NCBI GenBank assembly: GCA_014193315.1 | Contig: BJHS01000013.1 | Coordinates: 1-64,000 of the forward strand | Reading direction: 5' to 3' | DNA from: Verrucomicrobiota bacterium | Lineage (GTDB): Bacteria > Verrucomicrobiota > Verrucomicrobiia > Opitutales > UBA953 | Length of the DNA stretch: 64,000 bases | Part shown: positions 4,475-10,630 of the stretch, one piece after another | Layout: each line of letters starts with the position of its first letter | Position numbering within the stretch: position 1 is the first letter of the stretch | Translations under genes and position numbers: made by a program | The notes under the pieces: model-generated | Databases searched by the model: none | The model's input: the letters and a program-made list of their open reading frames with translations, nothing else | What the model was told of the DNA's origin: nothing

Positions 4475-6031
4475 ATGGCCCAACAGTCCATCGCCATCCT
4501 CGATTTCGGTTCGCAGCTGACCAAGGTCATCGCGCGCCGGATTCGCGAGTGCAACGTGCACTCCCGCATCTACCCCTTCGGCGTCTCCCCCGAGACCTTG
4601 CGCGCCGACGGCGTGGTGGGCGTCGTCCTCTCCGGCGGCCCTTCCAGCGTGAAGGCCAAGGGCTCGCCGCACCCGGACGCGGCCATCTTCGAGATGGGCG
4701 TGCCCGTTCTTGGCATCTGCTATGGCGTGCAACTCATGGGCCAGATGCTCGGCGGCAATGTCGCCAGCAGCAGCCATCGCGAGTACGGCCATGGCACGCT
4801 CACCTTTCGCAAGGGCTCCCAACTGCTCCACGGGCTTAAGTCGCCGCTGCGCATCTGGAATTCCCACGGCGATAAGGTCACTCGCCTGCCCAAGGGTTTC
4901 AAGGCGGTGGCCAGCACGGAGAACTCCGAATGCGCGGTTGTCGAGGACCCGAAGCGCCGCTTCTTCGGTATTCAGTTCCACCCCGAGGTCGCCCACTCCG
5001 AGCGCGGCATCGACATCCTGCGCAATTTCCTCTTTCGGATCTGCCATTGCCGCGCCGACTGGAAAATGGACGACTACGTCGACACCGCCGTCCGCGAGAT
5101 CCGCGCGAAGGTCGGCAAGTCCCAGGTCATCCTTGGCCTCTCCGGCGGGGTCGATTCCTCCGTGGCCGCGGCCCTCATCCAGCGGGCCATCGGCAAGCAG
5201 CTGACGTGCGTCTTCGTGGATAACGGCCTACTGCGTCTCAATGAGCGCGCCCAAGTCGAGAAGATGTTCCGCGGCAAGTTCAAGGTCGACCTCCGCGTGG
5301 TCGACGCCTCCGCCACTTTCCTACGCAAACTCAAGGGCGTCACCGACCCCGAGCGGAAGCGCAAGATCATCGGGCATGAGTTCATCAAGGTGTTCGAACG
5401 CTCCATCGCCGAGGTCCAGCGCACGAAGAAGGGCAAGGTCGATTTCCTCGCCCAGGGCACGCTTTACCCCGACGTCATCGAATCCCTTTCGCCCAACGGC
5501 GGCCCGGCCGCCACGATCAAGAGCCACCACAACGTGGGCGGGTTGCCCAAGCACATGAAGCTCAAGTTGCTGGAGCCGCTCCGCGAGCTCTTCAAGGACG
5601 AGGTCCGCGCCCTCGGCGAAGCCTTGGGTCTGCCCCACGAGATGGTTTGGCGCCACCCCTTTCCTGGCCCGGGCTTGGCCGTCCGCGTCTGCGGCGACAT
5701 CACCCGGGAACGGCTCGAGGTGCTCCGGCAGGCCGACGACATCTTCATCAGCGAGTTACGCACTTCCGGCCAGTACGCCAAGGTTTGGCAGGCGTTCGCC
5801 GTCTTCCTCCCGGTCCGGAGCGTGGGTGTCATGGGCGACGGACGCACCTACGATAACGTGTGCGCCCTGCGGGCCGTGACCTCCTCGGACGCCATGACGG
5901 CTGACTGGGCCCGCCTGCCCTACGAGGTGCTCCAGCGTGCCTCGACCCGGATCATCAACGAGGTCAAGGGCATCAACCGCGTGGTCTACGATGTCTCGTC
6001 CAAGCCGCCGGCGACGATCGAGTGGGAATAA
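4475..6031 (+). CDS. guaA: GMP synthase (glutamine-hydrolysing)
   Basis: Converts XMP to GMP with ATP and glutamine, the last step of de novo GMP synthesis. The product has two parts: a class I glutaminase (residues about 5-195), with nucleophile C82 in GICYGVQLM and the His/Glu pair in [10 protein letters not shown], and an ATP pyrophosphatase with the PP-loop SGGVDSS at 223-229. The C-terminal dimerisation part ends KPPATIEWE, the usual GuaA terminus. At 518 residues it is close to the E. coli length of 525. The start is read without a Shine-Dalgarno sequence (ttttttccATG). Confidence 0.98.
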
Positions 6032-6084
6032 GCCGAGCATCGCTCCGTTGACACCCCGCGGGTCCGGCCTTTCCCTTCGTTCTC

Positions 6085-7641
6085 GTGTCCGAACCTGGTT
6101 TCCAAGTCATTGCCCGCCGCTGGCGGCCCCGTCGCTTCGATGAGCTGGTCGGTCAGGAGCACATCGTCCGGACCCTGCGCAACGCCCTCGAGACGAAGCG
6201 CATGGCCCACGCCTACCTCTTCGTCGGCCCCCGTGGCACCGGCAAGACGACCACCGCCCGGATTCTGGCCAAGGCCCTCAACGGCACCGGCGGCCCCAAG
6301 GCCGACTTCGCCGTCGACGACCCGGTCTGCCTCTCGATCGAGCAGGGCAACTGCCTCGACGTCGTCGAGATCGACGCCGCCTCCAATCGCAGCCTCGAGG
6401 ACGCCAAACGTATCCGTGATGAGTGCCAGTTCGCGCCTTCCGCCTGTCCCTTCAAGGTCTTCATCATCGACGAAGTCCACCAATTGACGAAGGACGCCTT
6501 CAACGCGTTGCTTAAGACGCTGGAGGAGCCGCCTCCCTGGGTGAAGTTCATCCTCGCGACCACGGAGGCCGATAAGGTCCTGCCGACCATCACGTCGCGC
6601 TGCCAACGGCTGGAATTCCACCCGATTTCCGAAGAGGTTATCGCCGCCCAGCTTGCCCGGATCGTGAAGGCCGACGGCGTGAAGGCCGATGAGATGGCGC
6701 TCACCGCCATCGCCCGCCTCGCCAACGGCGGGATGCGTGACTCCCAGTCGATCCTCGATCAGGTCATCTCTTTTTCCGGCAAGACCGTGACCGAGGCCGA
6801 CGTGCTTTCGATCTACGGTCTGGCCTCCGCCCAGCAGATCGCCGACCTCGCTCGCGCCATCGCCACCGGCGACGGCCGGCTCATCCTCACGCTGTGCGAC
6901 GCCTTTCATACGGAAGGTCGCGACCTCTTGCGCGTGCTCGGCGACCTGCAGGCGCGCGTCCGCCAAGCGTCCCTCGACTCCGTCCGCCAGGGCGGGACCA
7001 GCGCCCTCCTGGGGGCACCCTTGGCCACCGAGCAACTGGTGCGGGTCCTGGAGTGCTTGCAGACGGGGGAGCAGGGGATTCGCCAAGGGCTATCGCCCCG
7101 GGCCAACTTCGAGGTCACCTTGCTCAAAGCCATCGAGCAAAGTAGGGCGAGGTCCATCGACCTCCTCATTAAGGATATCGCCGCCGCTTCAGCTGGACTC
7201 CCTCGGGAGCCCGGCGAAAAAAAAATAAACCCGTACCTGGTGCCACCAGCGAACCTCTTCGGCGGGGGTGCCGGCGTCGTCGCGTCCCCGGTAACGGTCG
7301 CCGCCATCGCGGCACCCGTCCTGCGGCTGGCGCCCATCGAGGATGTGCCGATCGAGGATACGACCAACTACGAGGAGGGCTTGCCGCCGCTCGAATCCCT
7401 GGGGGCGGAGGATGACGCCCCCCTTCCGATACCGGTCAGCGGCTTTGCGTTTCCAGGCGTTACCGCGGCGGTGGCCAACGTGGCCGAGACCGGAAAGTCC
7501 GCGTTCCCCGGCGACCCCGATTTTCAGGCGGCCTTGGAGGCCTTGCCTCCGGGCTTACGCGAAAAACTGCAGTCGACCCTCGGGGCGGAATTCACCTCGT
7601 TGCGCCCGGTTCCCGCCGGCAAGCTGCGCCGCCTCGTCTGA
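6085..7641 (+). CDS. dnaX: DNA polymerase III subunit gamma/tau
   Basis: Clamp-loader ATPase that loads the sliding clamp and couples the polymerases at the fork. Translation starts at a GTG. The AAA+ core shows Walker A GPRGTGKT (48-55), Walker B/DExx in [11 protein letters not shown] and sensor/arginine-finger motif TSRCQR. The zinc module that normally follows Walker A has only two cysteines left (C82 and C90). Domains I-III end near residue 370; the tau-type tail (380-518) is Ala/Pro-rich and acidic. At codons 378-381 the reading frame crosses nine consecutive A residues, a slippage signal of the kind that produces the shorter gamma protein in E. coli and Thermus. The gene lies between guaA and a phosphodiesterase. 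Confidence 0.97.
7205..7228 (+). promoter_or_regulatory. Candidate dnaX slippage/frameshift site: A9 run with TAA in an alternative frame
   Basis: A run of nine A (7217-7225) is read GAA AAA AAA ATA in the dnaX frame. The heptamer A_AAA_AAA (7218-7224) is in the correct phase for -1 slippage. GGGAG at 7205-7209 ends 7 bases before the run, near where a stimulatory Shine-Dalgarno-like element would lie. Loss of one A puts TAA (7226-7228 in the genome) in frame, ending the protein after residue 380. A -1 ribosomal shift would add 63 codons and stop at the TGA at 7413-7415. A small hairpin (CTGGT/ACCAG, 7237-7249) follows. Confidence 0.65.
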
Positions 7642-7643
7642 GC

Positions 7644-8102
7644 GTGGCCGCCCCGATCGAAATCGGCGTCCTGTCCGACACCCATGGGCTGCTGCGCGCG
7701 GAGGCGGTCATCGCGCTCGAAGGCTGCGCCGAGTACTTCGTGGCCGGCGACCTTTGCAGCCCGCTCATTGTGCCGGTCCTGGCGTCGCTGGGGCCGACCT
7801 TCGCGGTCGCCGGTAATGGCGACGACGACGCAAACCTACCGCTCGTCGTCTGCCGTGAGGTCGCCGGGGTCCGGATCCTCATGCATCATGGGCATCTCCC
7901 CGTCGATGAGGCGTCGTACCGCCCGGATGTCGTGATTACCGGCCACACCCATGTCCCGCTCATCGAACAGGCCGGGCCCGTCTTGCGGCTCAACCCCGGG
8001 AGCGCTGGCCGCCGCCGTTTTAACCTTCCCGTGACGGTGGCCCGGCTTACCTTGCGGGACGGTCGGGCTTCCGCCCGTTTGATCGAACTCCCGCTCGCAT
8101 GA
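7644..8102 (+). CDS. YfcE/MJ0936-type metallophosphoesterase
   Basis: A 152-residue single-domain calcineurin-like phosphodiesterase. All the metal-site blocks are visible in order: SDTHG (near residue 11), a GD pair (VAGDLCSP), GNGDDD where the family has GNCD, MHHGH, and GHTHVP. Such proteins hydrolyse phosphodiester bonds in vitro, but their natural substrates are mostly unknown. It starts at a GTG two bases after the dnaX stop, and its stop overlaps the hrpB start (ATGA), so it is translationally coupled inside a dnaX-hrpB operon. Confidence 0.88.
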   Translation: MAAPIEIGVLSDTHGLLRAEAVIALEGCAEYFVAGDLCSPLIVPVLASLGPTFAVAGNGDDDANLPLVVCREVAGVRILMHHGHLPVDEASYRPDVVITGHTHVPLIEQAGPVLRLNPGSAGRRRFNLPVTVARLTLRDGRASARLIELPLA

Positions 8103-10630
8103 GCCAGCCCCTGCCTATCGACCTGCTCAAGGCGGACCTCGTCGCCGCCTGTGGTCTGTCGCGTCGGTTGGTCCTACGTGCCCCGACCGGCTCGGGCAAG
8201 TCCACCCGCATCCCGCAGATGCTCTTGGATCTCGGCCTGGTCGAGGGGCAGATCGTCGTGCTCCAGCCTCGGCGCATCGCCGCTCGGTTGCTGGCCGCGC
8301 GCATCGCGCAGGAACGCGGCGTGAAATTGGGCGGCGAAGTCGGTTACCAGATCCGCTTCGAACGGGTGGAGTCGGCCCAGACCCGGATCAAATTCGTCAC
8401 CGAAGCCCTGTTGTTACGCCAGATGGCCTCCGACCCCCAATTGAAGGGCATCGGCGCCGTCGTCTTCGATGAGTTCCATGAGCGTAACCTGCACTCGGAC
8501 GTCGCCTTGGCGTTGGCGCGGCGGCTCCAGGAAGAAGGTCGGCCGGACCTCCTCATCGTGGCGATGTCGGCGACCCTCGATACCGAGGGAGTCGCCCGTT
8601 GGCTCGGTTCGGCCGAGACGTTGGCCGCCGATGGGCGGACCTTCCCGGTCGAGATCGAGTACACCCATCAGCCGCGCACCTCCACCCGGCCCATCTGGGA
8701 TGCCGCCGCGGAGCAGGTGAGACGCCTCCTGCAGGAAGAGCCGGAAGGCGATGTGCTCGTCTTCATGCCTGGCTCGTATGAGATCATGCGTACCATCGGG
8801 GCGGTGCGCAACCTGCCAGAATCCGGCGGCGTGGAAGTCTTACCGCTCCATGGCGAATTACCGCCCGAAGAACAGGACCGCGCCGTCAAGCCGGGGCCTC
8901 GCCGCAAGGTGATTGTCGCGACCAACGTCGCCGAGACCTCGCTCACCATTCCCGGCGTCCGCGCCGTCGTCGACGCCGGCCTCGCCCGGGTGGCGCGCTT
9001 CGACCCCCACCGGGGAATCGACACCTTGCTCATCGAGCCGGTCTCGCAGGCATCCGCGGAGCAGCGCGCGGGCCGCGCGGGCCGCACCGGTCCTGGGCGC
9101 TGCATCCGGTTGTGGTCACAGACCGACCACGCGTCCCGGCCGTTGCGTGAGACGCCCGAGATCAAGCGGGTGGACCTCTCGGAGACCATCCTGCTCCTGC
9201 TGACCTCGGGTTGGGGCGACGCGACCACCTTCCCTTGGTATGAGAAACCCGACGACAAGGCTTTGCAGCGGGCCATGATGGTCTTGCAGGACCTCGGGGC
9301 GGTCGATGGCGCTGGCGCGCTGACCCGGCTGGGTCGCCGGATGTCCGCTTTCCCCGCGCACCCGCGCTACGCCCGCATGCTCATGGCGGCGGGCGAATTC
9401 GGCTGCGTCGACGAAGTCGCCGGCATCGCCGGCCTTTCGCAGGGCCGCGATATCCTGTTCCGTAAGGTCGACGACCGGACGGAGAACGCCCGCGACGCGG
9501 TCGTGCAGGATGATGGCTCTGATTTCTTCACGCGGCTCGCGCTGCTGCGGCGGGCCGCGGCCATGAAGTTCGACCTCGATGGCTGTGAACGTCTCGGGAT
9601 CCATGCGCAGTCGGCCCGCCAAGCCGACCAGGCGGCGCGTCAATTCCTGCGGATCGCCGAAGGGCAGGGGCTACCGGTCAACGGTGAGCCCGCCGACCCC
9701 GAGGCCATCCGCCGCTGCCTTCTCCTGGGGTTCTCCGATCGGCTAGCGGTCCGGCTCGATGCGGGGACGTTGCGCTGCGCCCTCGTCCATGGCCGCAAAG
9801 GCGAGCTCCGCCGAGAGTCAGCCGTCCGTCAGGCCAGGCTCCTCGTGGCGGCCGAGATCGACGAGATCCAGGCGCGCGGCGAGGTGACGACCTACTTGTC
9901 GCTCTGCACCGCGGTCGAGGTCGCCTGGCTCCACGAACTTTTCCCCGCGGATTTCAACGAAGGTGCCGCCGCCCGTTACGAGCCCACGTTGCGCCGAGTC
10001 GTCACCCGGGTCGAACGACGCTTCCGTGACCTCGTGCTGGAGACCGTGGAACGCGACGATGCGCCCTCCGACGCCGCCAGCCGGCTCCTCGCCGAGGAGG
10101 TGATCGCCGGTCGCCTGGAGTTGGAAAAGTGGGACGGGGCCGTCGACGCCTGGATTCGCCGCCTGAACTTCCTCGCGAAGCATTGCCCGGAGCTGGGCAT
10201 CGCCCCTTTCGACGAGGCCGGTCGCCGGATGGTGATCGAGGAAGTCTGCGCCGGGGCCGTCGCCTACCGCGAGATCCGCGAGCGCCCGGTCATGGGAATT
10301 GTCCGCGGTTGGTTGACCCACGAGCAGGCGATGGCACTCGAGTCCTATTGCCCCGAAAAAATCGTGCTCCCCCGCAAGAAGCACCCCGCCCGCATCGAGT
10401 ACACCGCCGCCGGCGAGGCGGAGATCGAAGCGACGGTGCAGGAGCTCTACGACTTCCCGGGCGCCAAACTCCGCGTCTGCCAAGGCAAGGTGCCCATCGT
10501 CATCTGCATCCAGTCGCCCGCCCGCCGGACGCAACAACGGACCCGCGACCTCGACGCCTTCTGGAAGGGCTCCTACGAGCTGGTGAAGAAGGAACTTCGC
10601 GGTCGCTACCCCAAGCATGAGTGGCGATAG
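8099..10630 (+). CDS. hrpB: HrpB-type ATP-dependent RNA helicase
   Basis: DEAH/RHA-family helicase of 843 residues. Motif I is APTGSGKST (28-36), motif II is DEFH (124-127), the HrpB-specific variant of DEAH, motif III is SATLD, and motif VI is QRAGRAGRTGPG. The helicase-associated and HrpB C-terminal domains follow, and the protein ends RGRYPKHEWR, characteristic of HrpB. The cellular RNA substrate of bacterial HrpB is unclear. The start codon overlaps the stop of the phosphodiesterase gene (8099-8102). Confidence 0.93.
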   Translation: MSQPLPIDLLKADLVAACGLSRRLVLRAPTGSGKSTRIPQMLLDLGLVEGQIVVLQPRRIAARLLAARIAQERGVKLGGEVGYQIRFERVESAQTRIKFVTEALLLRQMASDPQLKGIGAVVFDEFHERNLHSDVALALARRLQEEGRPDLLIVAMSATLDTEGVARWLGSAETLAADGRTFPVEIEYTHQPRTSTRPIWDAAAEQVRRLLQEEPEGDVLVFMPGSYEIMRTIGAVRNLPESGGVEVLPLHGELPPEEQDRAVKPGPRRKVIVATNVAETSLTIPGVRAVVDAGLARVARFDPHRGIDTLLIEPVSQASAEQRAGRAGRTGPGRCIRLWSQTDHASRPLRETPEIKRVDLSETILLLLTSGWGDATTFPWYEKPDDKALQRAMMVLQDLGAVDGAGALTRLGRRMSAFPAHPRYARMLMAAGEFGCVDEVAGIAGLSQGRDILFRKVDDRTENARDAVVQDDGSDFFTRLALLRRAAAMKFDLDGCERLGIHAQSARQADQAARQFLRIAEGQGLPVNGEPADPEAIRRCLLLGFSDRLAVRLDAGTLRCALVHGRKGELRRESAVRQARLLVAAEIDEIQARGEVTTYLSLCTAVEVAWLHELFPADFNEGAAARYEPTLRRVVTRVERRFRDLVLETVERDDAPSDAASRLLAEEVIAGRLELEKWDGAVDAWIRRLNFLAKHCPELGIAPFDEAGRRMVIEEVCAGAVAYREIRERPVMGIVRGWLTHEQAMALESYCPEKIVLPRKKHPARIEYTAAGEAEIEATVQELYDFPGAKLRVCQGKVPIVICIQSPARRTQQRTRDLDAFWKGSYELVKKELRGRYPKHEWR

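Follow-up and report, generated by a model that had tools for sequence, protein, structure and literature searches.

Slippage at runs of nine or ten adenines in dnaX has already been published. In Thermus thermophilus, transcriptional slippage takes place at an A9 run in dnaX (Larsen 2000, as cited in PMC5009743, PMC1088944 and PMC6260861). GeneTack identified a "novel type" of dnaX in which tau is reached by recoding, with nine genes carrying 10 As, and its authors took mixed frameshift directions within one family to point to transcriptional realignment (PMC3711429). Slippage stimulated by a stem-loop has been described for insertion sequences, including a Roseiflexus element (Penno 2015, as cited in PMC5009743) and IS1447, in which an A9 run stands behind a stem-loop, A8 and A10 transcripts account for about 16% each, and seven A's suffice (PMC6211511).

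The window analysed here is a stretch of 64,000 nucleotides from a freshwater Verrucomicrobiota bacterium (contig BJHS01000013.1). On its plus strand, the essential gene dnaX occupies 6085..7641, with an inferred GTG start codon and a TGA at its end, and the full-length frame encodes a tau protein of 518 aa. A profile search matched the open reading frame to TIGR02397 with 371.7 bits, and the Pfam domains found in it are DNA_pol3_delta2, AAA, DNAX_ATPase_lid and DNA_pol3_gamma3, the clamp-loader domains ending at residue 353. Behind these domains lies an uninterrupted A run of the length at issue. A sequence-only reading of the window had placed A9 at codons 378-381 in the phase A_AAA_AAA, and we found it there, at 7217..7225 (GAA AAA AAA ATA, then AAC), when counting from the GTG at 6085. 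That reading was also right about the two other frames. In a transcript that has lost a single A (A8), the adjoining TAA at 7226..7228 would end translation at 380 residues; the stop in +1 is immediate. The -1 frame, which an A10 transcript would use, is open for 63 codons past the run (7224-7412) and closes with TGA at 7413..7415. The tau-specific C-terminal region (7229..7638) is in frame 0, and its C-terminal motif resembles, by eye, the tau ends that relatives encode in the 0, +1 or -1 frame; no frame change is needed to reach tau in the window, unlike in some of those relatives.

The window and Thermus have in common an A9 run behind the clamp-loader domains, with frame 0 giving tau and other transcript lengths giving gamma, which for the window is a prediction. 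They differ in that Thermus reportedly uses mainly insertions, whereas the stop in the window adjoins the run in the deletion (A8) frame and is kept only loosely in the -1 frame. A predicted stem-loop adjoins the run in the window, which may be a further difference. Many order-level relatives, with A10 and tau in the -1 frame, belong to the GeneTack type, from which the window departs by having tau in frame 0; the relatives also include genes with tau in +1, and an upstream hairpin goes unmentioned in the portion of PMC3711429 consulted. Like the Roseiflexus element and IS1447, the window has a nascent-RNA hairpin, here a predicted one, immediately 5' of its slippery run. Unlike these insertion sequences, the window has the arrangement in a chromosomal housekeeping gene, conserved in the genus and, in position, in part of the order. 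E. coli dnaX is the same gene with the same expected products, and a Shine-Dalgarno-like GGGAG likewise stands upstream in our genus, but the window has neither A_AAA_AAG nor an adjacent -1 stop, and no downstream stem-loop was found in it. In the literature listings and passages surveyed, no paper describes a hairpin abutting the dnaX run or a tau frame that drifts within an order.

That the genome has a single A9 is in itself unsurprising. One A9/T9 site was found in the 2.36-Mb assembly, the one in dnaX, and a hand calculation from base composition gives about 0.7 sites by chance for a genome of that size with 65% GC; we therefore dropped uniqueness as a sign of depletion. The conservation of the run is surprising. 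Among 45 distinct regions of the genus, the run is A9 in 42, A10 in two and A11 in one, and it is directly followed by TAA in 41 and TAG in four. The sequence-only reading had remarked that the TAA looked designed and had proposed an alignment of related genomes; with A9-A11 followed by TAA or TAG in 45/45 regions, both the remark and the expected conservation are supported. The genus keeps the deletion-frame stop. The +1 stop is immediate in all 42 A9 regions; their -1 stop, found anywhere from 3 to 100 codons past the run, is only loosely kept. In 41 distinct A9 sequences, AAA379, AAA380 and ATA381 show zero synonymous change, while AAA makes up 20.3% of the other lysine codons and ATA 3.9% of the other isoleucine codons of genus dnaX. 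Only six of 248 conserved degenerate codons have no synonymous variation in these sequences, and five of them are codons 375, 377, 379, 380 and 381; codons 372-377, which encode part of the hairpin discussed below, also show little synonymous change. The statement that this genome writes lysine almost always as AAG was too strong, since AAG accounts for about 84% in the window (AAA 117/752 for lysine; ATA 27/851 for isoleucine in the long open reading frames), yet the non-random AAA AAA ATA is borne out by its presence in 41/41 sequences. The conservation of run and stop supports the earlier proposal of a probable gamma-producing slippage site. We consider it likely that, through programmed transcriptional slippage at A9, a single dnaX gene yields two proteins, tau of 518 aa and gamma of 380 aa (domains I-III).

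Exactly one A9/T9 site is found in 33/55 genus genomes, and it is the dnaX site in all 33, identified by dnaX coordinates in 25 and otherwise in eight, among them one at a contig end (G017) by sequence context only. No site is present in 3/55 genomes and two or three in 19/55. Two other genes each carry an A9 shared by two genus genomes, at L301:1127 and L306:1240 within a thioredoxin-like reading frame near codon 194, and at L310:1206 and L312:1111 within a cytochrome-like frame with PPKKKPRPD near codon 103 (run positions in sense orientation; functions guessed from translation). Two further records bear the titles Polynucleobacter meluiroseus (L012) and Akkermansia muciniphila (L023), and their dnaX, with A9, is that of the Opitutae genus (about 77% and 76% identity); they are misnamed or mixed bins. 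The -1 frame past the run is open for 63 codons in the window, 100 in L008/L009 and 120 in L271, from another genus of the family, and in these cases gamma made from an A10 transcript would carry a long extension; it is open for 3-29 codons in the other A9 members of the genus.

The run extends well beyond the genus. A search of 131 genomes of the order gave 122 with a dnaX match, the records of near relatives being mostly titled Opitutae, Opitutales or Verrucomicrobia. At the site, 100/122 distinct order loci outside the genus have a run of at least nine (72 A10, 24 A9, 3 A11 and 1 A13), and shorter runs occur at codons 360-400 in five (A8 in 3, A7 in 2), so that the run is 9 or longer in 100 of the 105 loci having seven or more. 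The remaining 17 loci have no run at the site: 12 lack any run of 7 and five have one only elsewhere. Fifteen of these 17 come from genomes of 0.8-1.3 Mb, and the other two are L088 and L093. A run at the site is absent in 16/16 class members outside the order. A9 or A10 occurs in 15 of the 30 best-scoring phylum loci from 145 genomes, which are not a random draw, and in this part of the gene in 7/42 loci with other titles (L046-L087). Those seven (L049, L061, L065, L066, L067, L075 and L084) are titled Acidobacteria, Acidobacteriota or Pyrinomonadaceae. CTC or CTT comes after their A9 or A10, each of the two other frames is closed within 8 codons, and a clear abutting hairpin is mostly missing; these runs are possibly an independent occurrence. 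One dnaX from another genus of the same family (L247) has A8 at the site and a strong hairpin, with frames 0 and -1 both open for more than 180 codons.

The heptamer phase, which the sequence-only reading had pointed out, is not what is conserved: order-wide, runs are found in each of the three phases, and nearly all have at least 9 A's. It had also seen a Shine-Dalgarno-like element in the GGGAG just upstream. The motif is present at 7205..7209 (+), 8 nt before the heptamer, and is retained in 41/41 A9 genus sequences, which together with A_AAA_AAA in the right phase would fit a gamma made, like that of E. coli, by programmed -1 ribosomal frameshifting at a site served by an internal Shine-Dalgarno. 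We evaluated anti-Shine-Dalgarno complementarity in 68 representatives, one per 80% identity cluster of 169 dnaX, the profile sets leaving out dnaX with runs below 9 or too little upstream sequence. The z-scores were -0.10 at -10, -0.27 at -8, -0.51 at -6 and -0.70 at 0, a steady rise toward the run that leaves complementarity weakly raised close to it, without a peak at the E. coli spacing of -10. The Shine-Dalgarno core is missing in 4/8 aligned sequences of families f20 and f23, in all eight of which the hairpin can form. The E. coli-like reading of GGGAG is thereby weakened, and the motif may have a Shine-Dalgarno role in this genus. A search for 16S rRNA in the assembly gave no match, a search that also missed 5/14 control genomes. 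No downstream stem-loop was found (z 0.15 for 7226-7285; flat profile in 67 representatives). The -1 stop is distant in the window (63 codons; range over the genus, 3-100), and the +1 stop adjoins the run in the 42 A9 regions. Frameshifting to -1 could not reach the +1 tau of several relatives, and it leaves unexplained why 100 of 105 order loci with a run of at least 7 have 9 or longer. We therefore set E. coli-type frameshifting aside as very unlikely.

Ribosomes might instead slide both ways on the AAA codons of a homogeneous mRNA, the hairpin being incidental or acting on the ribosome. In vitro, E. coli ribosomes do slide into several frames when they meet iterated AAA (PMC4363877), and a frame-agnostic tau would fit such sliding too. 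Against it, a hairpin 0-4 nt before the run would sit in the mRNA track of the ribosome and rather matches the exit side of the polymerase, and run length is mostly held at 9 or more. About nine is the commonly cited length for polymerase slippage (PMC5009743 and PMC6211511, in part), and runs of at least 9 favour the polymerase because a ribosomal heptamer would need only 7. Length does not separate polymerase from ribosome cleanly, since IS1447 slipped with seven A's. Overall, we regard ribosome sliding as quite unlikely.

Directly upstream of the run, a terminator-like RNA hairpin can be drawn at 7192..7215 on the plus strand, GCUGG-a-CUCC[CUCG]GGAG-c-CCGGC, whose base lies one nucleotide 5' of the slippery tract and whose 3' inner arm (7206-7209) is part of GGGAG. 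The segment 7185-7216 folds at -16.4 kcal/mol with a dinucleotide z of -2.29, and the longer stretch 7160-7216 has z -1.31. No intrinsic terminator was called on either strand in 6000-8200, the T run on the minus strand preceding the hairpin, and no Rfam match was obtained up to E=1 in 6000-7700. Over the 68 representatives, the mean z is -1.04 (s.e. 0.18) for the 30 nt that end at the run, with 38% below -1.5; segments ending at least 6 nt earlier and all downstream segments tried range from about -0.4 to about +0.4 (downstream -0.24 to +0.42). Dinucleotide shuffles pick out the position at the run (p 0.0005; eight other offsets p at least 0.13), as does the synonymous rank (p 0.018; one other offset 0.049). 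The excess of structure persists when the kin of the window are removed (n=60, z -0.75, s.e. 0.16), and 45 control dnaX without a run have a mean z between -0.51 and +0.35 at codons 355-440. A stem abutting the run, with a spacing of 0-4, ranks in the top 5% within its gene in 16/68 representatives, where 3.4 are expected (binomial 1.9e-7), and among the top 10% in 23/68 (binomial 8.8e-8). The remaining 45/68 are not in the top 10%, and the Wilcoxon test over all 68 gives only 0.073 because many representatives have no clear stem. For the same reason, the hairpin cannot be essential for slippage.

It is possible, though on balance improbable, that run and stop are what matters and that the hairpin is a by-product of the GC-rich conserved peptide GLPREPGxKK. 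Synonymous shuffles of the window's own peptide fold nearly as well (-14.3 for the hairpin against a mean of -12.6, rank 0.284), and the case for the hairpin consequently rests on the set. There, the synonymous test of the abutting stem places 15/68 under 0.1 (p 0.0026) and 6/68 under 0.05. Different peptides in other families also give abutting stems (L094, L139, L188, L191 and L222), the uncommon codons CCT and CGG are used in 38/41 genus sequences, and A-U replaces a G-C pair in L302, L307 and L147, all of which argue against a by-product. An alignment of 22 sequences shows the stem paired in 88.6% of its cells, a value reached by 0/500 shuffles, and the covariation score is reached by 1/500; two-sided change involves only 2 pairs and is reached by 165/500 shuffles (L098 is in alignment A1 and absent from A2; L302, L307 and L296 are in A2 only). 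Judged from these alignments, covariation of the stem is modest. Among 30 frame-0 representatives, the hairpin goes together with an immediate deletion-frame stop at a nominal Fisher p of 1.3e-5 (table filled by hand). Independent contrasts on the tree gave on average 0.6 pairs in the same direction and 1.0 in the other; lacking their support, we make no claim that deletions are promoted by the hairpin.

Behind the run, the longest frame of the 68 representatives is 0 in 30, -1 in 29 and +1 in 9, or 30, 28 and 8 of 66 after removing L148 (contig end) and L255 (dubious) and putting L271 right to 0. Compared by eye, the tau C-termini look similar whichever frame encodes them. The tau frame changes at least 15 times on a quickly made tree with 66 dnaX, in which 19 of 63 forks are open. 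L148, L255 and six Acidobacteriota were left out of this tree, six non-representatives were added and frame 0 was assigned manually to L271; the tree includes three genus rows with A10 or A11 and tau out of frame, which could be assembly errors. Both non-tau frames close unusually early, at distances among the shortest tenth of those found for alternative frames in the same gene, in 58/68 representatives (55/65 without L148, L255 and L271). The two genus representatives both fall outside this pattern, L001 (rank 0.54) and L042 (rank 0.29), because their -1 stops are 63 and 18 codons on.

The three genus regions with A10 or A11, in which tau is thrown out of frame, would also be expected of a phase-variable or neutral homopolymer whose length changes in the DNA, or of assembly errors, with no programmed use of the run. 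This we consider extremely unlikely. Five single-contig genomes of family f14 (L149, L151, L154, L157 and L289) carry A10 with tau in -1, the run is free of synonymous change in 41 sequences, and the early closing of both alternative frames in most representatives is not what a neutral run predicts. Switching dnaX off makes little sense, as the gene is essential.

Long uninterrupted runs, tau in all frames, adjacent stops, a hairpin on the exit side and no downstream structure together fit slippage by RNA polymerase. We infer that RNA polymerase rather than the ribosome slips, and the efficiency of slippage, the existence of gamma and the effect of the hairpin are predictions of the same kind. 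At A9, the 9-10-bp hybrid of the polymerase could sit almost wholly on rA:dT and slip, releasing transcripts with A8, A9, A10 and further lengths. The A9 transcript would give tau, A8 would give gamma ending at the adjoining TAA, and A10 would give a gamma extended by 63 residues. Formed in the nascent RNA and placed like the hairpin of an intrinsic terminator, a single base ahead of the run, the hairpin might exert a pull at the upstream end of the hybrid and so increase slippage. Both tRNA-Lys(CTT) and tRNA-Lys(TTT) are encoded in the assembly, side by side at G000:C5:33789-34034; a review reports both for Thermus, not for E. coli, and links them to polymerase slippage in Thermus (PMC5009743, in part).

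Taken jointly, the observations lead us to favour, by a modest degree, the reading that in a housekeeping gene a terminator-like hairpin and an A9-A11 run program RNA-polymerase slippage, both in this genus and in roughly one in three of the divergent run-bearing dnaX examined, and that the tau frame is nearly neutral, with at least 15 switches between 0, +1 and -1. The frame might be nearly neutral because each transcript pool would hold all three frames. If this is true, hairpin-assisted polymerase slippage would no longer be a matter of insertion sequences but would extend to a core gene of replication, and the relatives would offer a large natural set, from A8 to A13, with a hairpin or none and with tau in any frame, for measuring slippage efficiency. 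Ordinary gene calling would presumably truncate dnaX wherever the DNA encodes tau out of frame, as it does in many relatives. The reading frame itself would drift freely once transcription supplies all three.
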